In this document: in pieces, positions 20,556 through 57,317 of the stretch
Position numbering within the stretch: position 1 is the first letter of the stretch
Layout of the letters: each line of letters begins with the position of its first letter
Assembly (NCBI GenBank): GCA_964016985.1
Contig: OZ024824.1
Coordinates: forward strand, 124,656,803 to 124,720,802
Direction: 5' to 3'
DNA: 64,000 bases
Source of the DNA: Anodontia alba
Taxonomy: Eukaryota > Mollusca > Bivalvia > Lucinida > Lucinidae
Program-made: the position numbers and the translations under genes
Notes under the pieces: model-generated
Database searches by the model: none
What the model was told of the DNA's origin: nothing
Seen by the model: the letters and a program-made list of their open reading frames with translations, nothing else

Positions 20556-20559
20556 AAAA

Positions 20560-21050
20560 GATAATAGAAAAGTCCTAGAAGTGCCACAATCACAAGCCGC
20601 AGCCCTTCCAAGACACTAAGAGGAAGAGGAAACAGACAAAACCAAACAAGCGCTAATCGAACAAACGTACAAAAAGCACTCAGATTAGCTCTGTCTTCCC
20701 CAAGCGAGGTAATCGCAATGCTAAAAGGACTGAAAAACACAAGAACAAAATAAAACAAATCGCCTCGTAGAATAAACCACAAAGCAACAAAGAGTAAGAC
20801 TAACACCGGGACCACCCCCTTAGAACGGTCAGTAGAATAAATCACCAGTGTGTGTGTGGGGGGGGGGGGAAGGCGGGGAGGGGGCTTTAAAGCACTTCTA
20901 CAGTTAGCCAACTTCACTCTGGGTCCCGATGCTACTCTTAACACAGAAATACATAAACATTTGGTTCGCATAAAGGCACCCAACTCAATCAATGCATCAA
21001 AGCGAAAACATAAAAATCAAATCAATCACTATAATAATCAAAGACTAGTA
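20560..21050 (-). mobile_element. Penelope-like element tail, inverted next to a plus copy
   Basis: Minus-strand tail like 5670-6193, from the family 3' end (about 20560) to about 21050, where it abuts the plus-strand reverse transcriptase fragment at 21052. Includes a G-rich tract at 20854-20885. With 21052-22700 it forms the inverted arrangement typical of PLE insertions. Confidence 0.75.
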
Positions 21051-21051
21051 T

Positions 21052-22700: not shown

Positions 22701-23255
22701 AAAATTAGCTATTCCAAGGCGGTACTTTCATTGTTGAATTTTTTGTTTATTCTTCAGCAGTGTTTCACTTACAAATGTGTTTCTTTTAACAGTTATGTGA
22801 GTTTAAGATATATTAGTAAAGGTTGGGTAACAGAATTGCCACCGTTTAGGGAAATGGTTTCCAACATTTTATTTTATTTTATTTATCTATTGTGGCTGTT
22901 TAATTGTATTTGTCTGGCCTTCCCTTTGATGTTGAGAGCGTGATGTGGATCTGAATGCATCGGTTCCTGAGTTCGTCTGAGTTTGCTTAAAATGACGTCA
23001 TGATACGTGATGTTACTTTTGCGTGTCGTTTCATGTTGCTCAAACCCTTCATGACTGGAGAACGCACTGTGAACAGAATCTTTACTGGGTGCTTTTTTGA
23101 TAGTCAAGGATGCAACGTTTCTTCATTCGGACAAAAAAGACTCTGATCAGACTACGCTAACGAGTTCTCGTTGGGCGCACATGTCAGCAAGTACGTTTCT
23201 CACGTTGCAGTTCCATTGATGTCTTATATTTATGTTACCATATTACCCTAAAGAC
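22701..23255. other. Unassigned sequence
   Basis: No supported gene; a weak GATCA-type foldback lies near 23137-23190. Confidence 0.4.
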
Positions 23256-23784
23256 AAGGTAAGAGAAAAGTCCAGGGAGTGCCACAATCACAAACCGCAG
23301 CCCTTCCCAGACCCCGAGAGGAAGAGGATACCGACATATCCAAACAAGCACAAATCGTACAAACGTCGAAAAGCACTAAGATTAGCTCTCTCTTCCCCAA
23401 GCGAGGTAATCGCAATACTAAAAGGACTGAAAAACACAGGAACAAAATGACACATAGTAAGACATAAAACAAATCGCCTCGTAGAAGACTAACACCAGGA
23501 CCACCGCCTTAGAACGGTCAGTAGAGTAAACCACGGCGGGGGGGGGTGGGGGGGGGCGGGGCTGAGGGGGTTAAAGCACTTTTACAGCTAACTAACTTCA
23601 CCCTGGGTCCCGATGCTCCTCTTAATACAGAAACGCATAAAAATTTGGTTCGTATAAAGGCTCTCAACTCAGTCAATACATCAAAGCGAAAACACAAAAA
23701 TCAAATTAATCACTATAATAAACAAAGACGAGTACTCATGGCTAATGCTACTGTATGCCAGAGTAAATGAAAACCAATAATTGA

Positions 23785-23880
23785 ACCACCGCGGGCCAAG
23801 CCAAAGACATATCGTCAAGACCCAACCCACTGGTTAAAGTTTTAGGAAGAGGCCGTCATTTGGTCTGACGCCCGAACCGC
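23785..23880 (-). promoter_or_regulatory. SECIS-like stem-loop, split PLE copy
   Basis: Minus strand: ATGA (23859-23856), exactly 12 bases, AAAA (23843-23840), then TGAC (23817-23814). The basal stem pairs GTTCGGGC and CAGAC with GTCTTTGGCTTGGCCC. Same place and geometry as 21860-21951 and 57132-57228. Pairing in helix II here includes G-U pairs and mismatches. Confidence 0.5.
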
Positions 23881-24927
23881 CGTCGTGCAATTAGTGAAGC
23901 ATAGCCATCAACAATGATTGGGTTGATAACTAGGCATGCATTCTGCCGCATAATATCCAGGCTATAGCCAATTCTTTTATAACGGTTATTAAGTTTTCTG
24001 AATTGCTCCGAAAAGTTAAATTTACCTACAATTTTTCTAAATCTGTACACTAAGTTACCGTAAAATTCTGGTTCCGATATACCTTGTTGCAGAAGTGTTT
24101 TCAGACTGACGCTATATTTTTCTACCAAGGCACTGTGTCTGCGATAAAATTTCGAAAACGCCTTACGAAGTTTAAAATAACGATAGCCCTGCCTGAGAAG
24201 TTTGGCAGTAAGGGCTTTATTACGGTAGTTAAAGTCATTAAGATTTGAAGAAGCTCTGGCGAATCTAATAAGTTGAGATATGTATACCCCATATGAGGTA
24301 CGCCGGGGGACATCGCCATCCAGAAAAGGGAAATTGACTATATCAAAATCAAAATCGTCTCGTTTATCATAAATTTTGGTGGAAACCGTACCATTAGAAA
24401 TATATAGATTCAAATCCAAAAAAGGTGCCTCGGTATCGGAAGAATTAGCTCTATTTAATTGGAGTTCCGTAGGGTATATCCGGTCCACCATTTGGTCAAA
24501 GTAAATAGTGTCAATATTTAATAAATCATCAAGGTATCTTAAAGTTGAATTGAAAGCCTCAATAATGTCAGCCTGATTTTCACGTGAACAAAAAAGAAAC
24601 AAATCTGCAACAAGAGGAGCACAATAAGTTCCCATCGGAATACCAATAGTTTGCCTATAAAGTTTAGTTCCAAATATAATAAAAATATTTTCCAAAAGAT
24701 AAACAAGGGCATCACAGACTTTTTGACACGGCCATAAATTGTGATTATTATATACATCAGAAGTGAAAAAAGCACATTCTTCGTTGCGGGCCAAATACTG
24801 GGTAGTTCCCGAATAAACGTTTGGTTGATTAAATCAATAAGTTTATCTTTTATAAGATAATGAGGTAACGTAGTATACAGTGTAGAAAAAATCATATGTA
24901 GACAATTTAGAAGCCTGAAAGTTTTTA

Positions 24928-24941
24928 GATTTAAATTTATT
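24928..24941. repeat. Target-site duplication of LINE insertion, 3' copy
   Basis: GATTTAAATTTATT on the plus strand is identical to 34247-34260. On the minus strand it encodes NKFKS of the PLE RT on both sides, so it marks the insertion point exactly. Confidence 0.93.
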
Positions 24942-25450
24942 AGTTTAAACATTTATTTCATGTATAATATTAACATATTTGAACATATACAAGACATGTG
25001 TTTACTACATTACAATATTATACAATGGGATTCGGAAGAAAGTCAACAGACTTATGAAGTCCGTCTCCCATTTTTTGCAAATATGAATGTACAAATACAA
25101 CATGTGACTTGAAATAGAACAAACTAACAGTGATAAAAAGGACAGAGTGAATTTCAGATAGAACAATCGTGAAGGTACATCTTTTCAACCAATGGCTGCT
25201 CCACGGGGATGTGGAAATACGTTTTGCACATATGAGTTGGATAAGTAAAATAATGAACAATAAATTAATTTATCGTCAGGCTAGGTTTATGTAAGGTTTA
25301 TTTCTCGACCACAACAAGATTTATCCCATTCCTTAAGAAATGGTACGAATTGAGATTAAAGAACATTTTAATTTTAGACGACTTTGCTAATTAATAGAAA
25401 TTTTATTAAACTAATAGAAGCGACTTTACAATAGTTTTACTTACCATAGA

Positions 25451-28400
25451 TTAATTATTTATCATTTCAAAACGTTTTGATTTCGTCAGGAACTCCTGTA
25501 CGGCGAGGAATATCTGTCTGTTATCAGAGTCAGAGAGTTCCTGACTACCAAAAAGAAATACATTTAAGGATGGCTGAAACACCGGAGTTACTCTATTAAC
25601 AAGTTCTTGTCGCAGGGTTGTATATCGTGGACAGGACATTAAGAAGTGCTGAGTATCTTCACGTGCTCCACAGACACATATCGGACTATCGATAATATTT
25701 TTAGAAAATAAGTGTGCATTAAGAGTACTACATCTCATTCTTAATCGAGCATGATAAATTTGGCCAAGTCTTTTACCATCAAAAAAGAACCTAGGTACCG
25801 CATTGAGATCAGAATCAAGGCGATGTTTAAAAGAAGATAATGTAGGAGTGTTTCTTACTTCCTCAGTTAATTCATTCCAGTCTCGTGTGACAGAAGGAAG
25901 AAAAGATTTATAGTAAAGTTGGGAATTTGCATGTACAGTATTAAGATTCTGTGCATTTCTCAAGTTATACACGGAATTGTTACCTACGTTGTCAGGCACT
26001 AAAGAAGAGAGATAATTAGGAGAAAGACCATTTTTCATTTTATAGAAAAGTTGCAATTTTTGTTTTTTTCTACGCGAGGCTAAAGTTTCCCACCCAGTTT
26101 CAGTATAAAGAGACTCTATGGAAACTAACTTTGTGGCTCCTGTTACAATACGGGCAGCTTCTATTTGTATTTTCTCTAACTCGTTCGCTTCATAAAGGGT
26201 ACAGTTATCCCAGACGACATTAGAATACTCAATAACTGGTCTGATAAAAGAAAAATAAATGGTCTGTAATGATCGTCTGTCTAGTTTGTATTTAAGCTTT
26301 CTCATGATGTTAATGCGGGTCCAGGCCTTCGATTTGATATATTCCAGATGTTCATGCCAAGTACAATCACTTGATAATACTACCCCAAGATGCTTATGAG
26401 AAATTACTTCTTCTATCTGTGTTTGATCCATAAAAACAGGAGGATGATATGGTTGATTTCTTTTTCTTGAAAAAATAATTGATTCTGATTTGGCTGGGTT
26501 AAATGTCACAAGCCATGTTTTAGCCCATAAATGTATTTTTTGTAAATCTTCATTTAACTGATTAGCAGCATTGACTGGATCTTCTACCACTATGTAAAGA
26601 CTTGTGTCATCTGCAAAGAGCCTTATAGAAGAGTGGATATTTTCAACAATATCATTGATGTATATTAAGAAAAGTAGAGGACCAAGTATCGAACCTTGGG
26701 GAACACCTGCTTTTATGGAAGTCCAACCTGAGGCTGTCCCAGGTAGCACGACACGTTGCTTTCTATTGTTTAAGTAATCGGTAAACCATTGTAAAAGAGA
26801 TCCAGAAATTCCCACAGAAGAAAGTTTATATAGAAGACCCTTGTGCCATACCCTATCAAACGCTTTACTAATGTCACAAAATATAGCTCTTACTTCTTTT
26901 CCTTCATCTAGCGCTTGACAAAACGTATTATAGAGGTCTGTTAACTGGTTTACTGTTGAATCTCCAGGCACAAAGCCAGATTGTAAGGTAGTTATAACGT
27001 GATTTTCTTGAAAGAAATTAAAAATTCGTTTATGAACTATTTTTTCAAGAACCTTTCCAACGGTACTTAGAAGGGATATTGGTCTATAGTTAGATACCTC
27101 AGATGGATCGTCTTTTTTTAAGATAGGTGTGACATTAGCTTGCTTCCAAATAGATGGAACTTTACCTTTATTAAGAGAAAAGTTGAATAGGTCCTGTAAG
27201 GGAGATGCTAGAGGCTGCGCAAGCTCTTTAAGAATTTTGTTGCTGATTAAATCAGGTCCTGATGCTTTACCTGTAGGTAGAGAGAGAAGCGTAGATTTGA
27301 CTTCTTCAGATGTAATTCTGAGAGAATGGAGGTTATAAAGAGGTGTTATCCTTGTTCGAGGCAACGAGGCATTATGTTCGTCCAAAATAGTTTGTTGAGT
27401 AAAAAATTCATTTAGTTTATCAGCTTTATGTTCGTCTTTACAATAAATAATATCATTACTTTTCAGTGGCGGAATAGAAGAGTCTTGATCCGGCTTTATA
27501 AAATATTTTAGGGTTTTCCACCAATCTTTTTGGCAAATATTGGGATCTTTGAGTTTGTTTTTCAGTTTATCTAACTCTTCATTTTTAGCTTTACGAATTT
27601 GAAATGTGACATCATTTCTTACCTGTTTGTAATTATTAAAGTCTGTCTGATTTTTTGATCTTTTGTATTTATCATAAAGTCGTTTCCGTTTTCTCATAAG
27701 TCGTTTAATATTATTAGTTAACCAAGAAGGATCAGATTTTCGAATGTGTACAAGCTTGTTTGGAACATGTTTGTTTACAAGATACAAAATTCTGTCGGTA
27801 ACATTTTGGGCATAAGTATCCACATCATTGTCTTTCACTAGGCTCCAATCAGTTTCAGTTAACTCATGAGAAAGCGATTGCAAATCACCCCTGTGATATA
27901 GATAAATTTGTCTAGAAAACGATGGGGTTATAACTTTATCAAAATTATAAACACAATAAATAGGGCTATGATATCTTATATTTTGGTCAAGAAATGGTTC
28001 ACCAACCCCGCTGAGGAATACCCTATTCTTGTTTGATACCAGAAATAGGTCAATAATAGAATCAGAATTTTCTGTATGGTGTGTTGGTTCTGTTATTATT
28101 TGGTCCATATTAAACTGTTGACATAAGTCGTTAATTTTCCTATATAAGGCAGGTTTAGAAACATCAAAATTAAAATCACCAGTTATTGTTATATTAGCAA
28201 TACTTGTATCAAATGCAAGGCCAATAGAGTCTTCAATACTAGAATAAATTAAGTTGTTTGAGCTTGGCGGTCTATAAAAAGTGCCGAGCAATTCTTTCCT
28301 ATTGTGTAAGGAGATCTCAACCCAAATACATTCAAGTTGTGGAAGTTCAAGGTCACGCCTTCTACATGAAAATAGAGACTGATTTATGTAGACACAAATG

Positions 28401-28807
28401 CCGCCGTGATTATCACCAACGCGATCACGGCGATACAAATTGAATCCGTTTATTTTAATTGTTTCGTCAGAGGTACGACGATCAAGCCATGTTTCAGTTA
28501 AACATATAGCATCAAAATCTCTTAGTTCGGACTCAATTATGTCAACTTTATTACTTAAGCTTTGAATATTATAGTGAACAACAGAAAATTTGCCTTTAAT
28601 AGATGATTTTTCAAAGATTCCACTCTCGGCTGAAGAGTTTGAGGATTCATCTAGGCGAGGTCCTGGATTGGTTTCTATACCCCCAATTAGTAATGCTGAC
28701 ATAATAATATATATCTCAAAATAATTCAAATAATCAATACCTTTCACCCTAGCCTGGCGACAATAATTCAATCCAATCCGCATCCTGTAGACTTGAATCT
28801 CAATCAT
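25451..28807 (-). CDS. CR1-like LINE ORF2: endonuclease and reverse transcriptase
   Basis: An intact 1118-codon frame for target-primed reverse transcription. Residues ~42-50 form a 2A-like motif (GGIETNPGP). Residues ~75-290 are an APE-type endonuclease (HYNIQS, LTETW, ITGDFNFD, SIIDLFLV), with RYHSP where the last catalytic motif usually reads SDH. Residues ~510-780 are the RT (NYRPISLLSTVGKVLEK, FCDISKAFDRVWH, GVPQGSILGPLLFLIYINDI, catalytic FADD). The C-terminus holds a CVCG...H...C zinc-like motif. The Met at 28807 opens the frame; the Met at residue 36 is an alternative. It has no stops or frameshifts, so it is young and possibly active. No ORF1 lies directly upstream. Confidence 0.95.
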   Translation of the reverse strand: MIEIQVYRMRIGLNYCRQARVKGIDYLNYFEIYIIMSALLIGGIETNPGPRLDESSNSSAESGIFEKSSIKGKFSVVHYNIQSLSNKVDIIESELRDFDAICLTETWLDRRTSDETIKINGFNLYRRDRVGDNHGGICVYINQSLFSCRRRDLELPQLECIWVEISLHNRKELLGTFYRPPSSNNLIYSSIEDSIGLAFDTSIANITITGDFNFDVSKPALYRKINDLCQQFNMDQIITEPTHHTENSDSIIDLFLVSNKNRVFLSGVGEPFLDQNIRYHSPIYCVYNFDKVITPSFSRQIYLYHRGDLQSLSHELTETDWSLVKDNDVDTYAQNVTDRILYLVNKHVPNKLVHIRKSDPSWLTNNIKRLMRKRKRLYDKYKRSKNQTDFNNYKQVRNDVTFQIRKAKNEELDKLKNKLKDPNICQKDWWKTLKYFIKPDQDSSIPPLKSNDIIYCKDEHKADKLNEFFTQQTILDEHNASLPRTRITPLYNLHSLRITSEEVKSTLLSLPTGKASGPDLISNKILKELAQPLASPLQDLFNFSLNKGKVPSIWKQANVTPILKKDDPSEVSNYRPISLLSTVGKVLEKIVHKRIFNFFQENHVITTLQSGFVPGDSTVNQLTDLYNTFCQALDEGKEVRAIFCDISKAFDRVWHKGLLYKLSSVGISGSLLQWFTDYLNNRKQRVVLPGTASGWTSIKAGVPQGSILGPLLFLIYINDIVENIHSSIRLFADDTSLYIVVEDPVNAANQLNEDLQKIHLWAKTWLVTFNPAKSESIIFSRKRNQPYHPPVFMDQTQIEEVISHKHLGVVLSSDCTWHEHLEYIKSKAWTRINIMRKLKYKLDRRSLQTIYFSFIRPVIEYSNVVWDNCTLYEANELEKIQIEAARIVTGATKLVSIESLYTETGWETLASRRKKQKLQLFYKMKNGLSPNYLSSLVPDNVGNNSVYNLRNAQNLNTVHANSQLYYKSFLPSVTRDWNELTEEVRNTPTLSSFKHRLDSDLNAVPRFFFDGKRLGQIYHARLRMRCSTLNAHLFSKNIIDSPICVCGAREDTQHFLMSCPRYTTLRQELVNRVTPVFQPSLNVFLFGSQELSDSDNRQIFLAVQEFLTKSKRFEMINN
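28658..28684 (-). other. 2A-like ribosome-skipping motif in LINE ORF2
   Basis: Minus strand encodes GGIETNPGP; the 2A consensus is D-x-E-x-N-P-G-P. Here Gly (GGT) replaces the usual Asp, one base away from GAT. 2A-like motifs at this place are known in APE-type non-LTR elements, where they release a short N-terminal peptide. The Asp change may weaken skipping. Confidence 0.7.
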
Positions 28808-29045
28808 GTTATGCAGTCAACAAGGAGTCGGAATTGTTTCAGTGATGCGGAATGGGTATGTTGATTCGTTGTACTTCCATGACAAGATAAATGGCACGTA
28901 TAGATTTCCCCGTGGAGCAACAAGGCAAGCATTGGTTTATATGATGAACAACTATTCAAACAAACATGTAAGCAGTATATAAACAAAAGATTCATAATGT
29001 TACATGATACGGAAAAGGAATAGTTAAGTACAATTTGGGATATTA

Positions 29046-29194
29046 TATTATACAACATACATGTAAGTTGAGTAATCATATTGCAGAACCCTATAATCAT
29101 TCAACAGTGAGTAGCATACTTCTTAATATTACACGCTATGAAGATGAATTTATTAAACTCATTTATCGGGCAGACATTGTAAAAAAACAAAAAA

Positions 29195-29227
<33 letters not shown>

Positions 29228-29660
29228 AAACACACACACACAAAAAAAAAACAAAAACATTTGGGAACTCTTTGACTATTCAACAGTAAGTAAAATGCAT
29301 ATATGTTGTGAAGAATTTGCTTGACCCCTTTTCGAACAGACATTTTAAAATGCGCAGGTAGGCTGAGTAATCGTGTTGAAACCCCTATAGCAATTCAACA
29401 GAGAATAAGAAACATATATGGTACGGTGATTTTTCTAGACCCCTTTTTAAGCCGACATTACAAAATAAAAAAAAAAAAAAAAAAAAAAAATGCATACTGT
29501 TAGATAATCGTGTTGAAAACCCTACAACCAGTTCAACAGTGACTAAAATACATATATGCTTCAAAGAATTTAGTAGACCTTTTTCAACAGACAGTGTAAA
29601 ATATGCATGTAAATTAAGTAATCGTGTTGGAAATACAATGAGTAAAATACATATGAAATT
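29046..29660. repeat. Degenerate ~110-150-bp tandem repeat with A-runs
   Basis: Units repeat TGAGTAATCGTGTTGAAA, ATTCAACAGTGAGTAAAA and TAGACCCCTTTTTCAACAG-like segments, separated by A-runs (29197-29226, 29467-29490). It lies just upstream of LINE ORF2 on the minus strand, so it could be part of the LINE 5' region or unrelated. Confidence 0.65.
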
Positions 29661-29759
29661 TATTAAATCAGAATGAGAAATATTACCAAATATAGCATGT
29701 GTTATCAGAGATATAGACCGAAGCCGACAGTCCAATTCTAGATGAGACACCGCAGAAGG

Positions 29760-29932
29760 CACATATACACATGCATACACATACGCACATACATCTACGT
29801 ATACATGCACATATATACATGTATATACATATATACGTACATACATACATATACATATATATACGCAAACACATATACATACATACCACACATACACACA
29901 CGCATATATATATATATATATACATACATTTA
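29760..29932. repeat. ACAT/TACA-rich microsatellite
   Basis: Alternating CA, TA and CG dinucleotides (ACATAC, ACATATAT). Long frames here are low-complexity artefacts. 29933-30370 shows no gene. Confidence 0.9.
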
Positions 29933-30369
29933 CTTCAAACTCGTATTAATGCACAACCTGACATTCGCAAAATAAAACAGTTCACATCCATTTAGTCCCA
30001 CTCCTTTTCCGAAACGAAAGTGAAAAGGACGTTTGGGAAAATGGATGACTATTAACGCACCCCCATTCCAATTCGCTTCGGCTCTTAGCGAAACGAAATG
30101 TAAGGGCCAAGAAATGGAATGGAAGTGAAGAGGACGGTAAATTTGGCGTTATTAAATTAAACGTTTGTTGTTGACGACTTTTATCTACAGCAACAACAAT
30201 TTTGCGTACCCTTTTGGTCGCTTAATTTTTTTTATTAAATATCACCAGAAAACCAATAACTAATTAACTAATACAAACATTTGTTAAAAACTCAGATAAC
30301 GCAAGCTACACATGATCAAATACTGTTTCGCTGTATACATGGTTAACATGGCGACTAATACTTGACTAT

Positions 30370-30372
<3 letters not shown>

Positions 30373-30424
<52 letters not shown>
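30373..30424. repeat. (GA)n microsatellite 1
   Basis: GA run of about 50 bases. Confidence 0.95.
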
Positions 30425-30428
<4 letters not shown>

Positions 30429-30566
30429 ATTCTACAACAAAAAACAGAATACAGGATAAATTACACCTATCAATTTTCTAACACGAAGGCATGATATTGT
30501 GTAGCTATGAATATGATGGTGTGATGGGATGACAACTATCAATTGACTAACAGTAAGGTGAGGTAC

Positions 30567-30567
<1 letters not shown>

Positions 30568-30615
<48 letters not shown>

Positions 30616-30692
30616 TACAGACAGACACAGAGAATACAGACAGACAGACCGACACAAACAGACAAAGAGAGAGAGAGATAGAGAGAGAGAGA
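30568..30692. repeat. (GA)n and (ACAG)n microsatellite 2
   Basis: GA run to about 30612, ACAG-type repeats, then a second GA run to 30692. Confidence 0.92.
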
Positions 30693-31094
30693 GTAATATT
30701 TATTATATACCATTAGATTTTAACGCTGCACCAATCAAGTTATAACACAACACCGAAAAAGTCAGCGTCGATACGTCTTCACGACGTCGAATCGTCACGT
30801 TCCGACGCTATGAATTCGAATCGTCGCGGACCCGACACCGCTTTGGCGCTGTGGGTTCCCCTGTTGTTACCATACTTGCAGCCGGCGGGGATGGGGAAAG
30901 GGTGGGAGGCTTTTTGAAATATCATTATTTTATAAACGTTTATACTCCTGTCAGTAAGTGTTATGGTTACATGCGCATTACATATAAGTACATCTTTTTT
31001 AACAAAGGAAAAGAAAGAAGAGAGGGAGAAACATACAGGATGAAAGGAGGAGAGAAAGTCACACATGAAGACAGACAGAAAAACAGACAACATA

Positions 31095-31097
31095 CAA

Positions 31098-31174
<77 letters not shown>
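31095..31174. repeat. (GA)n microsatellite 3
   Basis: About 75 bases of GA with one interruption. 31175-32600 shows no supported gene; 32376-32426 is an alternating CA/GCAT stretch. Confidence 0.93.
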
Positions 31175-31177
<3 letters not shown>

Positions 31178-32574
31178 GAATGGAATGAATTCCAACATTT
31201 CTTATCCGTAGGGAGAGACTGAGTAAATTCTAACATTTCTCTCCCGTAACTATATACGAGTACACCCTAAATATGTACATGTATTCATTCACAAACATTA
31301 TCTATATAGTATTCATTCATAAACGTAAACAACGAGCGAGTGTTGACCATATTCCAGCAGGTACACAACGCAGACACAATGTCGAATCAACGTTGCGTGT
31401 CCATCTGGATATATGGAGGATATTTACTCTTTTGCTGCGAACACCATAAATATTGTCATCGAGTGCAATGAAAACATCAGTATTTTCACGAGTGCGAAGC
31501 ACGAGTAAAAATTCAAATGCTTTCACTACACGAGATGAAAATTTCATGGTATTCACTAAAAAAGAGTAAATTTTCTTTTTATTTTATTGTTCACAAGTGC
31601 GCGTTTCTGACGTCATAACTAACGTCACCAAACGAAACATGTACGTCATGGCGTTGACGTTCAGTGCTTAACGTGAAACGCTGGAGAGACAAAAACAAAA
31701 AGTTTCGACAAATCAAAATAATCTTGATACCGAAATGTTCCTTACATTCTGACTAAGAAAATGCATACCAACACTTGATAGTTTAGTTCAGAAACAAAGA
31801 AGTTAGAGGTGTTCAAAAATCTGAAGTGGAGATAACACCCACTTCTGAGACAATGAAGAAAACCGAAGTCGCCCAAAGCGAGGAGTGAAAATATAAATCG
31901 TATCCGTCACCAGTGAAATGATACGATATCAATTCACTAGTGACTGATACCACTTTTATTTTCACCAGATATGCACTGATTTCACCGCTAACAATAAAAT
32001 AAACGCTGTTTATCACTGTCCTGTAAAAGATTTGGAGCATCATGGTTAACATTGACATTAATCAGGTCTCCCCAAGCGGTTATCATTATCATATTAATGT
32101 CATCGAAACAATGATTATATAGACCTTACCACATTCCCGGGATCACTTGATATCAGTCGCATCCACCCAAGCCCCCGGACAAACAATGCAGACCCGGATT
32201 GGAGCGCGTCGTCCGATCATGGTCCATTCCGCGCACTTTCCACTCCGCAGTATTTGAACTTGTAATCAAATAGTGCTGTTGACGTTCAAGTTAGATAGTC
32301 CAGCAAGGTGTCCGAGCTCCTAGGCAGGATACGGCTGGTATGGTACAGTCTCAGTTTGAAGAAGATCAGGCAAGCACACACACCACGCATGCATGCACGC
32401 ATGCACACACACGCACGCGTGTGTATGATGTCAGTAATTTCAAATGTATCATATGTGACCTGATTCAAAGAGTCTGGTGAGGTGTTCACACACATGTGGA
32501 ATATTTAGTACTGCAACAACCACAATCACTCGGACATTTACGCCTCCACAAACAGAGTATACCCAGAAAAGATT

Positions 32575-33020
32575 CCGCAGAGCGCAGCCTCTGATCTGGC
32601 TATACACTTGTACACTGTTTGCCTTACATGACGCAACACTCTAAATATTTAAAAAAATCAGGACAGACATGGTAAGAAGGTGAGGTGTCCGAATACTTAT
32701 GGCAATTACAGTTTCACTAACTGTTAATACGCATATAATTTTACCTGAGTTCTTAATCAATCAGGGGAACTATTTTACACGTGTAAAACTGTGTACCGCA
32801 CCAATCCCAATAATTGGGACACACAGGCTTCCGAAGTCTGAATGGACCCAGATCAAACACCAAAGAATGCGGCGTCTGATCAGGCTCCGCACTGTTTGCC
32901 ATACATGCTAAAACAGTCTGTACTCGCAGATGGTAGCAGACTGAATTATATCAAAATTTAGGACAAAAATGGTAAGTAGACGAGGTGTCCCAATAATTAA
33001 GGTAAGTACTTTACAACACA
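32575..33020. repeat. Foldback-type repeats around GGTGTCC and CACTGTTTGCC
   Basis: AGGTGTCC(C/G)AATA occurs at about 32683 and 32983. Segments with GATCAGGCTCCGCACTGTTT (about 32878) and TGTACACTGTTTGCC (about 32610) resemble the GCAAACAGTGT foldback family. Also an ATTGGGACACAC stretch near 32814. Probably MITE remnants; boundaries are unclear. Confidence 0.45.
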
Positions 33021-33224
33021 CACTGTCGGCAGTAAACTGTCTAAAGTACAGGTAATCTTACAATATAGTTAAAAAGGACTTTATGTGGAGGCTCAGTCCT
33101 CCAGATAACCACCTCAGGACGAAGTGACAAGACACCCGGAGAAGGCCCGGGCATTCCGCGCTAGTTCACGAAATGCGCGGGTCTTATCCGTCCATCAATA
33201 TACAAATCAGGAAAATTCTACTGC

Positions 33225-34246
33225 CTAAGTGTCAATTTGCCGGCCGGTACCCTTCACCTCATATCTTTCGAGTTCGGACATACTTGTAATTCTAACTTTA
33301 TTTCCTGCTACATCAAGTATGTGAGGGTAGCCAGCGTAGACCCATGTTTTTTTGATTTTCGAAGTTTTTGTTCTTATAATACGCCTGCATTCAAAGGCTA
33401 ACAGTTTGCGAAATGGGGTTAGATCCTCATTTATGAAAATGTTTCTAATATTATCCTCGCGCAATTTCGCACGGCCCCTGAGAAGATTCAGCCTGGCAGC
33501 ACTGTTTGTAAATTTGATAATAATTTCCCTATTTTGGAGAGGACGTGCGCTAGAACCCTCCGGATCCCTTTCCACTTCACCTTCCTGTGACCTGCCCACA
33601 CGATGCGCCCGATCAATATCACCTGGGCCAATTTTCACATTGACTCGCTTAGCGAAATCCAATACCACTTTGGTAACATCTTCGTTTTGAGTTTCTGAAA
33701 TACCAGAAATACGCAGGCACATTCTTCTGGAGTATTGTTCTGTGTCATCCTGCTTTTTATGTAAAGAAGCAACTTCTTCCTTCAGTGAATTGTATTTACA
33801 TTTCAAGTCATCCAGTTCGGACTGTAAATGTGCAGTTGCTGAGTTAACCTTGGCTTGAACAAGCTGACTTATTTCATTAATCAGCATGGATTTGACAGCG
33901 TGCGCAATTCTGGCTATGTCCTGTTCCGATAACGCTGACATAACAGGCTGCTGAATCTGCAGTAAGTGGTTAGTCATGGCATACTGGTCATTGAACACCA
34001 CAGGATTCATCAACGACGGCGGTGGAGGTGGTAGCTGACTAGCTGCTAGTTCTGGTGCTATGCCCGACAGATCCTCAGCTAGGAGTGTCTGATCTTGCAT
34101 TATTGAGCTTTGCGGTGTGTCTATGTAGTTAGAATCAGATGGCTTTCTACTTACTGGGCTTTTAAGAAGCGACAATGACTCGTCTGTCGAATCGTGCTCG
34201 AGTGTTAATTCGGTCTCAACGATAGAATGATCAGTCTGTGCTGTTT
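33225..34246 (-). CDS. LINE ORF1 protein (coiled coil plus RRM-like domain)
   Basis: The frame reads from the LINE border to the stop at 33225, about 340 residues. ORF1 proteins bind LINE RNA and chaperone nucleic acid. A Pro-rich patch (SQLPPPPPSLM) precedes a coiled coil (about QLVQAKVNSATAHLQSELDD to LHKKQDD), then an RRM-like core (MCLRISGISE, DIDRAHRVGR, EIIIKFTN, INEDLTPF) and a basic C-terminal domain. The frame stays open 8 codons into flanking PLE sequence up to a Met at 34271 that is not native; the first Met inside the LINE is at IMQDQ. The natural N-terminus is therefore probably lost. Confidence 0.85.
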
Positions 34247-34260
34247 GATTTAAATTTATT
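34247..34260. repeat. Target-site duplication of LINE insertion, 5' copy
   Basis: GATTTAAATTTATT, identical to 24928-24941. Confidence 0.93.
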
Positions 34261-34626
34261 GAGAATATCATTAGAATTTTTAATTAACCAGAAATAGTTA
34301 ATTCCGTCCCTTTCGTAAACTGTATCATAGTATCTTATCCAATGTTTTTTAACAGCAGTAAGGCATGAAGTTAGCAGTTTCGACAAATTAGTAGTCGTAC
34401 ATGAACTAGAATTAGCAATGAAACGTGCTTTATAAGGTCGTTTATGAAGTTTCGGTAACCAATATAATATAGGTAGTCCGTCTTGCTTTTCTTTAATATT
34501 CACTGCAAACTTAGCAGTAATATCGATATAATGGGTATTAATATTAGATCTCTCATCAGTAGAAATCCGTTTATATGTTTTAGTACTACCAAGTTCTTGT
34601 ATTAGAGTATTGATATAATAAAGTCG

Positions 34627-34629
34627 TCA
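34627..34629 (-). other. In-frame UGA in the RT fingers region (Sec candidate)
   Basis: Reads ANNVVVV-UGA-RLYYINTL with the frame open on both sides. Related elements, from memory, carry Cys or an ambiguous residue here. Confidence 0.55.
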
Positions 34630-35040
34630 CACAACAACAACATTATTAGCAGATTTATCAGCTGGAGCCAAAACATACTTCCTATGAAATTCTTGGATAC
34701 CTTGTTTCAAATATCGAAAAGATAATTTAGGCTTAGGAGGGAGAAGATCAAGGTTATTAGAATAAAACAACACACGTTCATCAATGATCTTAAAAATCTT
34801 TAATTTCCAATTATTTAAAGCATTAGACTCAACATTCTCTCGTTTACACCAACGCGTACAATAATCATTTAAAGCACTGGCAACTGTTTACCGAAATTTA
34901 TTGAAATCAATATGGGCTGGGAATCTATATTTAGGTCCTTTTGAAATAACTGAACGGATTCGTGAATCAGTTATAATCTTCAAGTTACCAGTGACAATAT
35001 GACCCGCTGGTTGATAACAAAATTTAGAATCTTTACAATC

Positions 35041-35043
35041 TCA
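35041..35043 (-). other. In-frame UGA at the CxC linker motif (Sec candidate)
   Basis: Reads SSPDS-UGA-DCKDSKFC and onward in the same frame to YQPAGHIVTG. The UGA takes the first Cys position of the CxC motif described for N-terminal-endonuclease PLEs. Confidence 0.6.
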
Positions 35044-35763
35044 AGAATCAGGGGAACTAGTTTCAATATCAAGATCAGAAACTAATTTATTGAAATTAAG
35101 TATAGTATTACGGATAGGTTTGTTATATTTATAACAAATAATAGGAGATTCCGTGTTTTCGAAATATAAAGGTATAGCTGATATAACATTATTATCACGA
35201 AATATGCTAGGTAAATCTATGAATTCAATACCTTTATTAATGAATGGAATTTTGATGAAATGTCTAATGTGGTTAATTTCAGAATTAATGTAAGGACGAA
35301 GAGCATGTTGAGTATAACTTCTATTTAGGAGAGCTGCTTCATACAAATCATGTTCTCTATCATAAAATTTATTCGCCTCATCATCTAACTTATGTAATGA
35401 AGAAACAGACAGTGAAGCTAGTTTGGAAAGCATTTGATGATGTCCAGAATTTAAGAGACTATTTAAATCAAAAAGAGATAAGACAGTTTTATGTTTTCGT
35501 TTAAAATTTCCATTTTTGCGCTTACCATGGGATCGTTTATTACGTTTTTTAATATCTAAAAGGGAAAAAGCATCGAAATCCGGCATTTTAGAAAGATTTC
35601 CTTCATGGTAAATATTATCATTAAATCCAAGTGGAAAAGGGGTTTGTAAACGTTTAATCCATTTAAGTTCCAGTTCATGTCTTAAAATATTTTTTAATCT
35701 TTCGGTAGAATTAGACTTGTGTATAATTTTTTCAACAGATTGAACTAAAACTTTACTTAGTGA

Positions 35764-35948
35764 TCATGAATGACCAGTACTCCGGAAATGTTGATAAAGA
35801 AACGTATCAATTTTCTTAGCTTTTTTTTAATTTTAAGCAAATGTTCCTTAAACCTTGTTTTACGTGCCCGTTTGGTCTGTCCAACATACTGCATTCCTCA
35901 GCCTTCTTCGTTGCAAGTGAGAACATATATAACATCCTCTGATTTTCA
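35764..35948 (-). other. Three in-frame UGA codons in the GIY-YIG domain (Sec candidates)
   Basis: UGA at 35946-35948 (LD-UGA-KSEDVIYV), 35898-35900 (NEEG-UGA-GMQYVG, where the second Cys of the CCHH zinc motif is expected) and 35764-35766 (GHS-UGA-SLSKV, after the last His). The first two share one frame; the third follows the frameshift in the A-run. Confidence 0.6.
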
Positions 35949-36515
35949 GTCTAAATCAGAGTTGTTTACAACTGAAAATTGTCTATGATTAACTCAGAAA
36001 AATTATAGTTGACTGACAAATTAAATGATTGCAGCAGGTGCAACTCTTGGCATTGCACTTGGAAATATTAGGGTACATACTGTTCCTTTTGTACGGATTC
36101 TTATATTTTAAAAGTATGGGAGATTTAATTGGAGAAAGTCTAATTCTAAGGTGATTTCTGAAAATATTATAATTAGAAGCGCCATATAAATTTATTGATG
36201 ATACAGAGTGAAGTTTCAAAGGTGAAACGTTAACAGTAGGTAACAGAGAGTTAAATCTAGCAGTAGAACGGGGAATCTGTAAAGAAGAAGCAGAATGTAG
36301 CCTAATAGGAGAAATAGTAATTTTTAATCTGTTAGTGATATTCATATAGTTCATCTAAGCATTGCGATAGAAAAGCGTGTGAACAATGGTGACAGATCGG
36401 CTGCCACAAAATGCGGCGTGATCAGGAGTTCATGCTTTTAGATGCATCAGCAGGTAATAAAATGGACTTCCAGTGTAAACCTTTTATGCTTAATGTCCCA
36501 AGAAAGGGACACTTA

Positions 36516-39437: not shown

Positions 39438-39972
39438 GGCCCGCCGTGGTTCAACTATTGGTTTTCATTTACTCTGGCATATAGTAGAATTAGCCATGAG
39501 TACTCGTCTTTGTTTATTATAGTGATTAATTTGATTTTTATGTTTTCGTTTTGATGCATTGACTGAGTTGGGAGCCTTTATGCGAATCGAATTTTTATGT
39601 ATTTCTGTATTAAGAGTAGCATCGGGACCCAGGGTGAAGTTGGCTAGCTGTAAAAGTGCTTTAAACTCCGCGATGATTTACTCTACTGACCGTTCTAAGG
39701 CGGTGGTCCCGGTGTTAGTCTTACTTATTGTTGCTTTGTGGTTTATTCTACGATTTGTTTTATGTCTTACCTTGTGTCATTTTGTTCTTGTATTTTTCAG
39801 TTCTTTTAGCATTGCGATTACCTCGCTTGGAGAAGGGAGAGCTAATCTGAATGCTTTTCGTACGTTTGTTCGATCTGTGCTTGTTTGGATTTGTTGGTTT
39901 TCTCTTCCTCTTAGTGTCTGGGAAGGGCTGCGGTTTGTGATTGTGGCACTCCCTGAACTTTTCTCTTACCTT
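39438..39972 (+). mobile_element. Penelope-like element tail
   Basis: Starts at GCCCGCCGTGGTTCAAC, the base of the SECIS-like stem, and runs to the family end CTTTTCTCTTACC. It therefore lacks the ORF and the SECIS-like loop. Confidence 0.75.
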
Positions 39973-40212
39973 TTTTTTTCTTTACAACAGCACATTCATT
40001 TCAATGACAATATCTTTTGGAAGAAAGGCGGTCGTTGTAACGAGAGTTCAGGAGTTTGCATGGCGCGGCTTAAATAGAATTTGAGCAGTGACATAACATT
40101 TTCTACAATACTACATGTGTGCCCAGCTAAGAATCAGACCCATGCAGGCTGATCAGATAGTTTTCTGTCTGCCTGAAGACGCTTGAAAACCATTGTTACC
40201 CACAGAGCGCCA

Positions 40213-41002: not shown

Positions 41003-41155
41003 TTTGGGGAAGAGAGAGCTAATCTTAGTGCTTTTCGTACGTTTGTTCGATTTGTGTTTGTTTGGATTTGTCGGTTTCCTCTTCCTTCTGGGGTCTGGGA
41101 AGGGCTGCGGTTTGTGATTGTGGCACTCCCTGGACTTTTCTCCTATCTTGTTTTC
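41003..41155 (+). mobile_element. Penelope-like element tail fragment
   Basis: The last ~150 bases of the PLE tail (GTGCTTTTCGTACGTTTG, GGGCTGCGGTTTGTGATTG, CTTTTCTCC). Confidence 0.65.
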
Positions 41156-42811: not shown

Positions 42812-44349
42812 TCATGCTCTAGACAAGGCATCAGGAATAATATTATCTTTTCCTTTGATATGCCTGATGTCAAGATTGTATTCCTGCAACAACAGGCTCC
42901 ATCTGAGCAACCTCTGATTTTTGTTTTTCATCTTATGGATGAAAGTCAGTGGATTGTGATCACTAAAAACAACAATAGGTGAGGACGAAGAAGTCAGATA
43001 AACTTCAAAATATTGAAGAGCAAGAATGAGAGACAAACATTCTTTCTCTACTGTAGAATAATTCTTTTGATGTTTGTTAAACTTTTTGGAAAAGTAACAA
43101 ACTGGATGATCCACACCATTGTCATCCACTTGCAGCAAAACACCACCCACATCAGCATCATTCGCAGCTACTGCTAGCTTAAATTCTTTATTAAAATTTG
43201 GTGCCAAGAGAACCGACTCACTCCTCAGTATAGCATTCAGTTTATCAAAGGCATTCTGACAATGACTGGTCCACTTAAACCTCATTCTTTTACTTAGTAA
43301 ATTAGTCAGTGGCTCAGCAATGACAGAAAAATTATTACAGAATTTTCTGTAATAACGGGCCATACCAAGAAACCTCATCAGTTGTCTTTTGCATGTGGGC
43401 ACCGGAAAATTTGAAATAGCGTCAACTTTAGCCTCTATAGGTTTAACCTGACCATGACCCACAACATGTCGTAGAAATGTTAAAGTTGCATGACAGAATT
43501 CACTTTTAGCAAGGTTTATTGTCTATTTTGCTTCACTTAGTTTATCAAAGAATGCTTTGATAGTTCCAAGATGGTGATTCCATTCATCATTTTATATTAT
43601 TGCATCATCGATGTAAGCATCGCAATGCTCGATTCCAGCTATTATGGTGTTGATTAAGCGTTGAAATGTTGCTGGAGAGTTTTTCATTCCGAAAGGCATT
43701 ACTTTATAGTGATATAATCCATTAGGAGTAAGAAATGCTGAGACTTCTTTGGCGCTTTCTGTGACAGGAATTAGCCAAAATCCTTTCAGAAGATCAAATT
43801 TAGTTATATATTTTGAATTTTCAATTTTGTCAATACAGTCATCCATTCTTGATATGGGAAAAGTGTCTGTTTTACTCAAATTATTGACCTTCCTGTAATC
43901 GGTGCATATCCGATATGTTCTATCAGGTTTTGGAACAAGAATGCAAGGTGAACACCATTCACTTTGACTTGGTTCAATAAAATCATTGTCCAGCAAATAC
44001 TGAATTTCCTCCTTAAGATATTCTTGTTTTGTTGGGTTCATTCTATATGGATGTTGTTTGACAGGTTGTGAGTCCTCAACATTCACATCATGATAAATTT
44101 TGTCAGTCCTTGTAGGAATGTCCGGAAATAAGTGTTCATATTGATGAATTAACTGTTTCAGTTCCTTTCTTTGGATTGGATCTAGGTGTGAAAGTTTCTG
44201 GTCGAGATCCTGGTCGAGATCCTTTAGAATGTCAGAATTCTGGAGTTTTGATGAAGCAGGATCAGATTTGGTGAAGTTCATGTCTTCAGAGTTCATTTCA
44301 CTTTGTTCCTGAGGGACTGAACTAACAACACTTTTTGGTGTAACAGAAG
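42812..44349 (-). pseudogene. Gmr1-like pol: reverse transcriptase and RNase H
   Basis: RT motifs: LLDNDFIEPSQSEWCSPCIL, FDLLKGFWLIPV, MPFGMKNSPATFQRLIN and catalytic YIDD (43604-43615). Then the connection and RNase H (NYSTVEKECLSL, VVFSDHNPLTFI, end DALSRA). The frame is continuous with the integrase but has TAA at 43592-43594 and TAG at 43523-43525. The first RNase H catalytic Asp appears to be Ala (FKLAVAAND). It ends about 130 bp before the polypurine tract, so no env-like gene follows. Confidence 0.9.
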
Positions 44350-45730
44350 AGCTATCCCTATCTATGTATTGTTTAAGCATGTTAACATGACATAACTGTT
44401 TTTGTTTGCGTCTCCCAGGAGTGTTAACAATGTAATTTACATCACTAATCTGTTTATCTACAGTGTAAGGGCCGTAATACCTGGCTTGCAATGGTTTGCC
44501 AGGAATAGGCAAAAGAGCAAGTACCCTGTCTCCAGGCTGGAAATTTCTTTCTTTAGCATTTTCATCATACCAACGTTTCATTTTCTTTTGCGCTGACTTA
44601 AGATTGGCCCGAGCAGCCCCACAAGCTTTAGACAGTCGGTCTTTAAGATCTGATACATACTAAAGTAAGTTCAGAGAACTGTCATTATTTGAGAGAAATT
44701 TCTCTTTCAAAAGTTTCAAAGGTCCACGCACAGTGTGGCCAAATACCAGCTCAAATGGGCTGAAACCAAGAAATTCCTGAACAGACTCTCTAACGGCAAA
44801 CAACAACAAATGAATGCCTTCATCCCAGTCTTTTTCAGTGTCAAAGCAGTATGACCTGATCATATTTTTCAGTGCCTGATGAAATATTTCAAGGGCACCT
44901 TGACTTTCAGGATGGTAAGGTGACGATTTATACTGAGTAATGCCCAACTCATGCATAACTTGTTGAAAAATTCCAGACATGAAATTTGAGCCCTGATCCG
45001 ACTGAACAGACTTTGGGAGGCCTACAAATGTGAAAAACTTTACCAGAGCCCTAACAATGTTCTTAGTTTTAATATTCCTAAGTGGAACGGCTTCTGGGAA
45101 ACGTGTAGAAGGACACATTATAGTGAGAAGATACTCATGGCCTGACTTTGGTTTGGGCAAGGGACCAACACAGTCAATAATTATCCTGCTAAAAGGTTCA
45201 TCAAAAGCAGGTATGGGCTGTAAATGAGCTTTTGGTGTTGTCTGGTTGGGTTTTCCTACCACCTGACAAGTATGGCAAGATTTACAAAACTGAGTAACGT
45301 CAGATTTTAACCCTGGCCAGTAAAAATGGTTAAGGATTTTGTGATAGGTCTTATTTACACCTAAATGACCTGACATGGGTGTCTCATGGGCCAAGTTAAA
45401 AATTTCAGGGCGATAAACCCCTGGAACCACTATTTGTAGGTTAAGAGTCCACTCGTCTTCTGCTGAGACATCAGGAGGATGCCATTTTCTCATCAAAATG
45501 CCTTTTTTGACATAAAAACAAAATGGGACTTGATCTATTTCTTTCTCACCTAAAGCCCTTTCAAGCAAAGGCAAAATTTCAGGATCATTATGCTGTTCCT
45601 TACAAAGTTGTGACCTTGACACCAAGTCATGACACTGACCTTGGTCATTTAATATTGACGAGTAAGGACTGAAGTCTGACTCGTCACTTAAGTATGTCTG
45701 CTTGTCAGACAGGCTGGGTGAAAGAAAATT
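44350..45730 (-). pseudogene. Gmr1-like pol: integrase
   Basis: Inserts the LTR cDNA into the host genome. Zinc motif HHCC (HETPMSGHLGVNKTYHKI, then CKSCHTC), catalytic DDE (IIIDCVGPL, SDQGSNFMSG, SPYHPESQGALEIFHQALK) and a C-terminal GPY/F-type module (ERNFQPGDRVLALLP, RYYGPYTV). One TAG (44660-44662) interrupts it before the GPY/F module. It lies upstream of the RT in the same frame, opposite to most Ty3/gypsy elements. The Tc1-like insertion lies just upstream. Confidence 0.93.
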
Positions 45731-45732
45731 TA

Positions 45733-45946
45733 TACTGAAAGGAAAAAGAAACGCAGGGTAAATTTTATTCCTAAATTTCATTCAAGTTTGAAAAAGTTTG
45801 TTAAATATTTTACTATGATTACAAAACGGTACATGTATGGAACAAAAGTTCCAAATTTCATTGGTTTGTGATCAACAAGTCTCGAGTTATTGAAGTTCAT
45901 TGGTAGCTACCCCCCAAATCTTGAAATCAAAATCAAACTGAAAATC
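45733..45946. repeat. Left terminal inverted repeat of Tc1-like element
   Basis: Matches the inverse of 46581-46790 with a few differences (a 4-5 base difference near 45779). Confidence 0.92.
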
Positions 45947-45979
45947 CAGGCTATTTCCGATGAGGTAGTGGAGACGAGT

Positions 45980-46582
45980 TGTTTTTACGGACGAGTCTAG
46001 GTTCACTCTCTATCGCGCAGATGGTCGACGTCGTGTGTACCGACGTCGCGGAGAACGCTTTGCCGACGCTGTGTTGTCGAACGGGATCGGTTTGGGGGTG
46101 GCTCCGTTATGGTCTGGGGAGGCATTGCTCACGGGATAAAATCACAGTTGATTATTGTTGCGGGCAATATGACCGCAGTAAGGTATAGGGATGAGATCTT
46201 GCGTCCTGTTGCAGTCCCGCTTGTGCAACAACGTAATCTGATTCTGCAGCAGGACAATGTCCGACCACATGTTGCCCGAGTTTGTCAGGATTTCCTGGCA
46301 AACAATAACATCGCACCACTAGCATGGCCACCGTACAGTCCAGAGTTGACCCCAATAGAGCATATGTGGGATGAGCTGGACAGAAGGGTTAGGAAGCGCC
46401 GAAATCCCTCCCCCGCTCCCCCCCCCCCACCCCCCACCCCCCAAACTCTCGCACAACTAAGGAATGCGTTGATCGATGAATGGAGTAACATCCCGATGCG
46501 AACTGTCAATGCTTTGGTTAACTCTATCCAAAGGAGAATTAGGGCAGCAACGGCAGCAAGAGGGGGGCACACCCGATATTGA
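45980..46582 (+). pseudogene. Tc1-like (DDE) transposase, truncated
   Basis: About 45980-46100 encodes the first catalytic block (FTDESRFTLYRADGRRRVYR). After a one-base shift near 46075 it continues as MVWGGIAHG, LILQQDNVRPH (second Asp) and YSPELTPIEHMWDELDRRVR (catalytic Glu), ending HTRY. The N-terminal DNA-binding paired-type domain is missing. A C-tract (46423-46440) adds a short Pro run. It cut-and-pasted at TA sites when complete; this copy cannot. Confidence 0.9.
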
Positions 46583-46790
46583 TTTTCAGTTTGATTTTGA
46601 TTTCAAGATTTGGGGGGTAGCTACCAATGAACTTCAATAACTCGAGACTTGTTGATCACAAACCAATGGAATTTGGAACTTTTGTTCCATACATGTACCG
46701 TTTTGTAATCATAGTAAAATATTTAACAAACTTTTTCAAACTTAAAATTTAGGAATAAAATTTACCCTGCGTTTCTTTTTCCTTTCAGTA
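46581..46790. repeat. Right terminal inverted repeat of Tc1-like element
   Basis: Ends CCTTTCAGTA before TA; pairs with 45733-45946. Confidence 0.92.
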
Positions 46791-46792
46791 TA

Positions 46793-47260
46793 TAATCTCG
46801 TGTTTAAAAGACTGACCCAAAAAGGTATCAGTTAAATCAATGTCCCCATCATTCTGTTTTTCTTTCTTTGCCATGGCCCTTGTAATGGCAAAAGATGGGT
46901 ACAGATCAGGGATTTCCTGTTCAATGGGATCAGGTGGCTGATCAATACAAGGTAGAGTAGTCAAAAGTGGGTTTACCACATCCTTATCTCCTGCTAAGTC
47001 ATTGCCTAACAGTAAGTGAACACCTTTAAAAGGTAAAGAAGGTCGAATACCGACAGCCACGAAACCAGTTACCAAGTCTAAGGATAAATAAATGTTATGA
47101 AGAGGAACATTAACAAATCCACACTCTACACCCTGAATAAGGACACTTGTCCCAGAAGAAATCTTCTCAGAAAAAGGCAGTGTATCTGCTAAAATAAGGA
47201 TTGAGAAGCTCCGGTATCTCGTAAGATTTTAATTGGGATAGACTGGGCATAGTCACTATT
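46793..47260 (-). pseudogene. Gmr1-like aspartic protease region
   Basis: The active-site motif RDTGASQS near 47200, a frameshift near 47190, then GVHLLLGNDLAGD, typical for the end of this protease, and a linker towards the integrase. The Tc1-like element interrupts just after this region. The protease matures Gag-Pol. Confidence 0.8.
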
Positions 47261-47434
47261 TAGTGACAAAACCATCTGATAAGAATGGTTCATAAATCTC
47301 CGTAACAGAATTAGTCTCAGACCTTTTGGTCTGGGTGGGATCTTCCTCCTTAACACATGACTGTGGTTTCGACCGTAAAGAGGTAAGGTCAGTAGGTTTA
47401 AGCCCCTCTTGTTTTTCTTTCTTTTCAAATGTAA

Positions 47435-56895: not shown

Positions 56896-57317
56896 ATGTC
56901 AGTCTGAAAACACTTCTCCAACAAGGTATATCGGAATCAGGATTTTACGGTGACTTAGTGCACAGATTTAGAAAAAGAATGTGGGAAATCTAACTTCTCG
57001 GAGCAATTCAGAAAACTAATTAACCGTTATAAAAGAATTGGTTATAGCCTGGATATTATGCGGCAGAATGCATGCCTAGTTATCAACCCAATCATTGTTG
57101 ATGGCTACATGTATGCTTCACTCTATAATTGCACGAGGGCGGCTCGGGCCTCAGACTCAATGACAGCCTCACCGTAAAACTTTTACCAGTGGGTTGGGGC
57201 TTGACGATATGTCGTTAGCTTGGCCCGCCGTGGTTCAACTGTTGGTTTTCATTTACTCTGGCACACAGCAGAATTAGCCATAAGTACTCGTCATTGTTTA
57301 TCATAGTGATTAATTGG
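56896..57317 (+). pseudogene. Penelope-like element fragment (RT C-terminus and tail start)
   Basis: Encodes SLKTLLQQGISESGFYGDLV, then with shifts KRIGYSLDIMRQNACLVINP, and enters the tail. It includes the third SECIS-like structure. Truncated on both sides. Confidence 0.75.
57132..57228 (+). promoter_or_regulatory. SECIS-like stem-loop, PLE copy 3
   Basis: ATGA (57160-57163), 12 bases, AAAA (57176-57179), TGAC (57202-57205). Helix II pairs AGCCTCA-CC with GG-TTGGGGCT, the best of the three copies. The basal stem uses GGCGG and GGCCCGCC. Confidence 0.55.

Follow-up and report, generated by a model that had tools for sequence, protein, structure and literature searches.

A Naiad retroelement family in a clam genome with five conserved in-frame UGA codons and its probable reading as a selenoprotein

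The window, by which we denote the whole 64-kb stretch of Anodontia alba DNA analyzed here, carries on its minus strand a copy of a Penelope-like element that is split into two halves by an insertion containing a LINE ORF2, a likely ORF1 and (GA)n tracts, with a 14-nt direct repeat on its flanks (Table 1); we infer a single insertion event for the interrupting stretch. The original prediction covered 34247..36354, an interval that stands for the 5' half, with the corrections that homology begins at 36351 and that the element continues at 24941-23842. Over the 5' half, from 36351 down, the window copy is 95.7% identical to another copy of the same family (L031, family 1) and, by alignment, it is truncated at 36351, just ahead of the likely start codon.

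Reading of the 5' half on the minus strand confirmed five in-frame TGA codons and one in-frame TAA at the positions originally reported, and no in-frame TAG was present in the protein frame of this half. When compared to other copies, the frame is shifted by +1 near 36002 and by +2 near 35829. These are the two frameshifts from which the copy had been declared dead; three further frame-breaking indels, +1 (24891), -1 (24806) and -4 (23893), are found in the 3' half, together with an in-frame 27-nt deletion. On account of the frame-breaking indels and of the TAA, which is private to this copy, the window copy is dead.

Table 1. Features of the Naiad locus and of related sequences in the window (window coordinates).
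Feature	Position	Strand	Remark
Naiad ORF, 5' half (GIY-YIG endonuclease, CxC linker, RT start)	34247..36351	-	homology to L031
Likely start codon, family 1 ORF	36343..36345	-	presumed; first ATG within stretch common to other copies
UGA site 135	35946..35948	-	TGA 29/30, TAA 1; the distant relative L051 has Cys
UGA site 151, second Cys position of GIY-YIG CCHH motif	35898..35900	-	TGA 28/30, CGA 1, TAG 1
UGA site 195, past GHS of CCHH motif	35764..35766	-	TGA 28/29, TAA 1
UGA site 436, first Cys position of CxC linker	35041..35043	-	TGA 27/30, TCA 2, TGG 1
UGA site 574, VVVV[U]RxYY block, RT start	34627..34629	-	TGA 30/30
Private nonsense TAA	34888..34890	-	GAA in 27/30 copies; TAA in window copy alone
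Insertion splitting the Naiad: LINE ORF2, likely ORF1, (GA)n tracts	24942..34246	-	
Likely ORF1 within insertion	33225-about 34241	-	
LINE ORF2 within insertion	25451-28816	-	ORF; Pfam APE (endonuclease) and RT domains
14-nt direct repeat flanking insertion	24928-24941 and 34247-34260		GATTTAAATTTATT (+ strand)
Naiad ORF, 3' half (RT)	23842..24941	-	to family stop TAA 23844-23842
SECIS candidate of family 1, over stop codon	23804..23867	-	degraded in window copy; coordinates transferred from L031 4988-5051
Naiad 3' UTR	23249..23841	-	L031 homology stops at 23249; element end ~5600 in L031
SECIS candidate, other family 1 3' fragment	57152..57215	+	SECIS_1 24.5 bits, E 0.0087, below cutoff 35

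Judged by eye, the window also holds other mobile elements: minus-strand ORFs at 42812-48229 resemble those of an LTR retrotransposon (gag, RT/RNase H, integrase), and on the plus strand there are a Tc1/mariner-like transposase ORF (46001-46582) and ORFs of a further LINE-like RT that includes a PHD-finger-like stretch (16137-17960). A tRNA-like call at 63308-63385 has an ambiguous four-base anticodon.

Several features place the element among the Naiads, a clade characterized by an insertion-in-fingers RT domain. The GIY-YIG domain precedes the RT in the same ORF; its Pfam match at 35930-35836 scores 17.9 bits, below the cutoff of 22.6, and the associated CCHH zinc motif could be followed by eye as LTC-N3-G-U...H...GHS, in which the position of the second Cys is a UGA. 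The linker motif reads UxC in the window family. Structure prediction for a relative, P0019 (mean pLDDT 79.2), returned telomerase chains as all 12 best PDB matches, with TM-scores of only 0.26-0.35 and 11-14% identity, and a PDB sequence search with P0019 gave no match. In several of 20 loci, partial 3' copies are found directly upstream of full copies, along with inverted pieces. No hammerhead ribozyme was detected in the window at the Rfam gathering cutoff, and the single match obtained in six loci at E <=5 was a non-hammerhead one. Judged by the N-terminal GIY-YIG, the CxC linker, the telomerase-like RT model of the relative and the tandem partial copies, the element fits the Naiads, i.e. 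Penelope-like elements with an N-terminal GIY-YIG and, as predicted here, a telomerase-like RT.

To determine how the in-frame stops are distributed among copies, we searched the genome (1,862,613,979 bases in 317 contigs), which yielded 2998 first-look candidates, with 40 further copies scored (42 rows; the window itself 1, small pieces 2). The best-scoring of the 2998 candidates, 30 loci, were retrieved, and a codon table of the 5' half was built from the window and 29 other copies. For the 3' half, the table comprises the window and 19 loci, and 11 of the 30 loci were left out: L001, which duplicates the window, and ten that are rearranged or incomplete (L008, L012, L016, L017, L018, L020, L022, L023, L024 and L026).

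Across the 30 aligned copies, the protein frame contains 159 TGA, 36 TAA and 11 TAG in 20,770 codons. At the five sites, TGA occupies 142 of 149 cells, the remainder being TAA (2), TAG (1), TCA (2), CGA (1) and TGG (1), and a Cys codon is found in 0/149. Taken singly, the sites have TGA in 27-30 copies out of 29-30 readable ones, while stops outside the five sites (17 TGA, 34 TAA and 10 TAG) are all sporadic, affecting at most three copies per codon. The chance that five of five fixed stop sites are TGA is about 0.002 given the sporadic-stop mix and 0.003 by mutational opportunity; the constancy of TGA at each site over the copies is the stronger argument. An alignment of this kind had been proposed as the test of the original prediction, and it bears the prediction out in that UAA/UAG are rare at the sites (3/149) and that at none of them do Cys or sense codons replace UGA across the other copies; likewise, the claim that the UGAs do not stem from random decay agrees with a TAA-rich mix of sporadic stops elsewhere. 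In the 3' half, none of the codons upstream of the family stop carries five or more stops among the 20 copies, and the family stop TAA itself is common to 18 of them.

Within family 1, however, a selection test showed neutral divergence (synonymous share near neutral 0.28) and is uninformative on selection; taken alone, the 29 other copies could stem from a single UGA-bearing founder. Since the copies diverge neutrally, the family 1 alignment shows, at the level of sequence, that its source copies carried the five UGAs, but does not by itself establish readthrough.

One locus deserves separate mention. Directly upstream of a normal copy, L020 (12-822; C4 near 85.66 Mb of the same genome) contains a 3' fragment in which G has replaced A at 141 of 223 A sites, whereas differences of other kinds number 25 over 830 aligned bases. 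The main copy at this locus shows 12 A-to-G and 12 T-to-C changes; in three further copies the A-to-G changes number 7-10, and a fourth control gave no alignment. The changed A is preceded by T in 53/73, A in 47/66, C in 26/40 and G in 15/41 cases, a preference which we take to be ADAR-like, and the fragment looks like edited RNA that was subsequently reverse transcribed. Its assignment to a separate family was rejected; it is an A-to-G changed family 1 copy.

Comparison between families is more informative. A protein search placed families at 73-76% identity to a relative, P0007, with family 1 at 68-69%. Family 2 (C18; L074, L077 and L054) and family 3 (C15; L075 and L055) show 70-76% DNA identity to family 1 and to one another. 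TGA was found at every readable site: family 2 (L074) has it at sites 436 and 574, and family 3 (L075) has it at 574, the region of 436 being missing; the N-terminal part of family 2 was excluded from this reading, the stretch upstream of its copy being another fragment. Between families 1 and 2, pS reaches 0.76 between the two UGAs and 0.69 past them, which is near saturation, whereas pN is 0.18-0.19. Over the 420 codons past site 574, dN/dS for the same pair is 0.12, and neither L031 nor L077 has a stop there; for families 2 and 3, dN/dS is 0.07. Conservation of the protein on both sides of the UGAs, as originally claimed, is thereby upheld at the level of families, with dN/dS of about 0.1 also past the UGAs. 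The UGA codons at the retained sites are, on these sequence comparisons, functional, because they have been kept through near-saturated synonymous change with conserved protein on either side. Random decay as the source of the UGAs is ruled out by the 30-copy codon table together with families 2 and 3.

For the N-terminal third, a hand count among the own-genome matches listed gave at least three TGA in 33 of the 38 that cover it, and the two listed matches nearest to the relative P0056 (71% and 67%) contain three TGA each, with neither TAA nor TAG. Further 3'-end fragments, mostly of family 1, are scattered through the window (5661-6206, 14894-15092, 20549-22688, 39438-39978, 41004-41154, 56887-57318, 8731-8863 and 10024-10327); exceptions are the fragment at 8731, from family 2 (93% to L054), and that at 10327, from a fourth family.

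Which residue stands at the UGA positions in related proteins was read from 235 relatives, the best 120 of 583 and the best 120 of 360, and all counts given here rest on these. At site 436, readable in 94 of the 235, we found Cys in 47, which accordingly have a CxC linker, W in 33, a protein end just before the site in 10 and other residues in 4. Site 574 was readable in 132, of which 45 end just before it, 32 have Cys, 32 have W, 19 start just after it and 4 show other residues. At site 151, six of these best-listed proteins have Cys and 13 further ones begin just past the site. In a distant relative, L051, Cys occupies 135, 151, 436 and 574 (the CxC being placed by eye), and in P0056 the first Cys of the CCHH motif is W and the second is Cys, the reverse of the window copy. 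Site 195, on the other hand, is a gap or P, S, I, H or W in listed relatives, and not Cys. The original prediction had proposed replacement of a functional cysteine at two sites, the second Cys of the CCHH motif and the first Cys of CxC; this holds and extends to four of the five sites (135, 151, 436 and 574), with 195 as the exception. The W in database proteins at 436 and 574 is probably UGA read by a predictor using code 4, since proteins 85-90% like the window show W at positions that are TGA in 27-30 of 30 DNA copies.

No relatives were found in viral contigs, and three were found in contigs of prokaryote genomes, all from MAGs and including L051; these are probably eukaryotic DNA. Naiad proteins or DNA (P0149, P0179 and L051-L053) were encountered in MAGs of Thiodiazotropha, Thiodubiliella and Thioglobus, which are clam symbionts, and of one Planctomycetota bacterium, where they probably represent mis-binned host DNA.

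Decoding of UGA as selenocysteine would call for a SECIS element, which the original prediction had proposed to look for, and a candidate was located at the 3' end of the element, outside the interval covered by that prediction. Scanning of the L031 3' end (610 nt) revealed one SECIS-like place, and none on the reverse strand. It reads AUGA-N12-UAAAA and ends UGACGAU. Its match to Rfam SECIS_1, in which AUGA, AAA and UGA are aligned, stays under the cutoff of 35 (21.8 bits, E 0.037) and was obtained only in a search restricted to the 3' end. Family 1 candidates thus range from 21.8 to 24.5 bits (Table 1), and family 3 (L055) reaches 37.9 bits (E 2.6e-6), above the cutoff. Family 2 retains AUGA, the 12-nt spacing and UAAA; Rfam searches gave no SECIS_1 match in this family and no SECIS match in the window copy itself. 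The whole 64-kb window yielded no match at the Rfam gathering cutoff, nor did six whole loci yield a SECIS match at E <=5. A genome-wide SECIS_1 search, in which 150 of 82470 first-look candidates were scored, gave 67 matches, one over the cutoff, and by eye none of those listed falls on a Naiad copy with known coordinates; this absence carries little weight, as the family 3 SECIS is missing from the list too.

Helix II forms 7/9, 7/9 and 9/9 pairs in families 1, 2 and 3, respectively, being a perfect 9-bp helix in family 3. The three families, which are too few for a covariation test, differ by a single double compensatory change, at pair 3 (C-G to U-A). RNA folding z-scores were uneven: L031 gave -2.34, L055 -4.35, L054 +1.27 and the window copy -1.05, and the window fragments at 21845 and 57125 gave -3.67 and -0.74; in shorter L031 pieces, the best fold is a competing hairpin. 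In the genome, tRNA-Sec matches exceed the cutoff at five places, and three of these score 77-78 bits.

The position of the candidate relative to the reading frame is peculiar. Families 1 and 3 end their ORF with the very UAA that forms part of the apical UAAA. Among the 235 listed proteins, 81 reach the C-terminal block and 70 have an S-M tail; exactly four residues follow the M in 66 of these 70, and in 69 of the 70 the residue after M has an A-initial codon, by which AUGA is kept. Seven listed proteins, e.g. P0174, end one codon before the motif. In family 2, two copies (L054 and the window fragment near 8900) have a TAG 15 nt ahead of AUGA, with AUGA-N12-UAAA still present. The persistence of the motif in this family, though the ORF ends 15 nt upstream, indicates that the constraint on AUGA-N12-UAAA acts on the RNA. 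These observations are compatible with a model in which a candidate SECIS built over the ORF end couples termination to recoding: a terminating ribosome would sit on the SECIS and block its folding, so that the element would be folded only in mRNAs whose stop codon is free of ribosomes. We consider the chances of this coupling to be evenly balanced; a stop codon lying within the SECIS, if this arrangement works, would give the gene an architecture that is unusual in an animal genome.

Taken together, the conserved UGAs, the purifying selection downstream of them, the Cys residues of relatives at four sites, a SECIS that exceeds the Rfam cutoff in one of the sister families and the tRNA-Sec genes in the genome support a model in which an active Naiad lineage very probably (roughly 0.9) encoded a selenoprotein with five selenocysteines, decoded via the host machinery and a 3' SECIS. 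Two selenocysteines would lie in the endonuclease, within or beside the zinc motif, and the other three past GHS, in the CxC linker and at the RT start. Host Sec machinery would insert Sec at the UGAs, steered by a single SECIS at the mRNA 3' end, the AUGA of which falls in the last codons and the apical AAA of which includes the UAA stop in families 1 and 3. The weak family 1 candidate would then have worked in the source copies, and Sec may serve zinc or redox chemistry in place of Cys. Membership of the element among selenocysteine-containing Naiads, as initially proposed, is likewise favored by the copies, families 2 and 3, the Cys-bearing relatives and the SECIS candidates.

Other readings of the five UGAs account for part of these data. 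Family 1 copies that diverge without selection, with UGAs common to all 30, are what would be expected of a non-autonomous dead family, in which a founder with five meaningless UGAs was multiplied in trans by an intact element. This scenario is, however, already largely refuted by the presence of TGA at the same sites in families 2 and 3 despite near-saturated synonymous change, by a low dN/dS (about 0.1) that holds downstream of the UGAs as well, by the lack of any fixed TAA or TAG and by Cys in relatives at four sites, and we regard it as very improbable. Equally improbable is readthrough of UGA as Trp or Arg via near-cognate tRNAs, without Sec. The W residues in 33 (436) and 32 (574) listed proteins would fit such decoding but probably reflect code-4 prediction, whereas listed relatives without UGA have Cys, not Trp, at these sites (47 and 32, respectively), and the above-cutoff SECIS of family 3 and the tRNA-Sec genes argue in the same direction.

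A further reading, which is a variant of the selenoprotein explanation and not its opposite, holds that the UGAs act mainly as regulated stops, with little full-length Sec protein being made and with selenium and SECIS strength as limiting factors. The low model score of the family 1 SECIS and the multiplication of losses over five serial UGAs speak for it, and UGA redefinition is described in a review as rather low for most selenoprotein mRNAs (PMC8310308). Conversely, termination at the first UGA would leave an incomplete endonuclease, and bivalve SELENOP with up to 133 Sec residues (PMC8744743) implies that bivalves can decode many UGAs per message. We therefore hold a predominantly regulatory role of the UGAs to be conceivable but rather unlikely, and retain the selenoprotein reading as set out above.

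Naiads were reportedly described by Craig et al. in 2021 (Mol Biol Evol) and are said to have turned into selenoproteins on separate occasions in spiders and in clams. The kind is thus already known from clams, and the window family would be a further member: it shares with the selenoprotein Naiads the N-terminal GIY-YIG, the CxC linker, the telomerase-like RT, the tandem partial copies, multiple in-frame UGAs and a clam host. Canonical Penelope/Poseidon elements also combine GIY-YIG and RT in one ORF and occur as tandem partial copies; in contrast to their C-terminal GIY-YIG, the domain order is permuted in the window element, and no hammerhead ribozyme was found in the window. Telomerase RT is the nearest structural match by the P0019 model, but only at the low TM-scores and identities given above, and the Naiad adds an endonuclease and UGAs.

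For the hard clam Mercenaria mercenaria genome, 11,273 Penelope copies have been counted (PMC8905726). In the glutathione peroxidase of fowlpox virus, the SECIS lies inside the coding sequence (PMC8310308), so that SECIS and coding region overlap in both systems; the Naiad candidate differs in that it codes only in its 5' arm and has the stop in its apical motif. Bivalve SELENOP (PMC8744743) shares with the Naiad the occurrence of several UGAs per bivalve mRNA but is a host gene with far more Sec residues and no mobile element.

On a practical level, gene callers cut Naiad proteins at UGA or write Trp, which should be borne in mind when such proteins are taken from databases. A genomic parasite that needs the selenium machinery of its host would represent a rare dependence, and the exchange of UGA and Cys between families of one genome permits a comparative study of what a mobile enzyme gains and loses through Sec.
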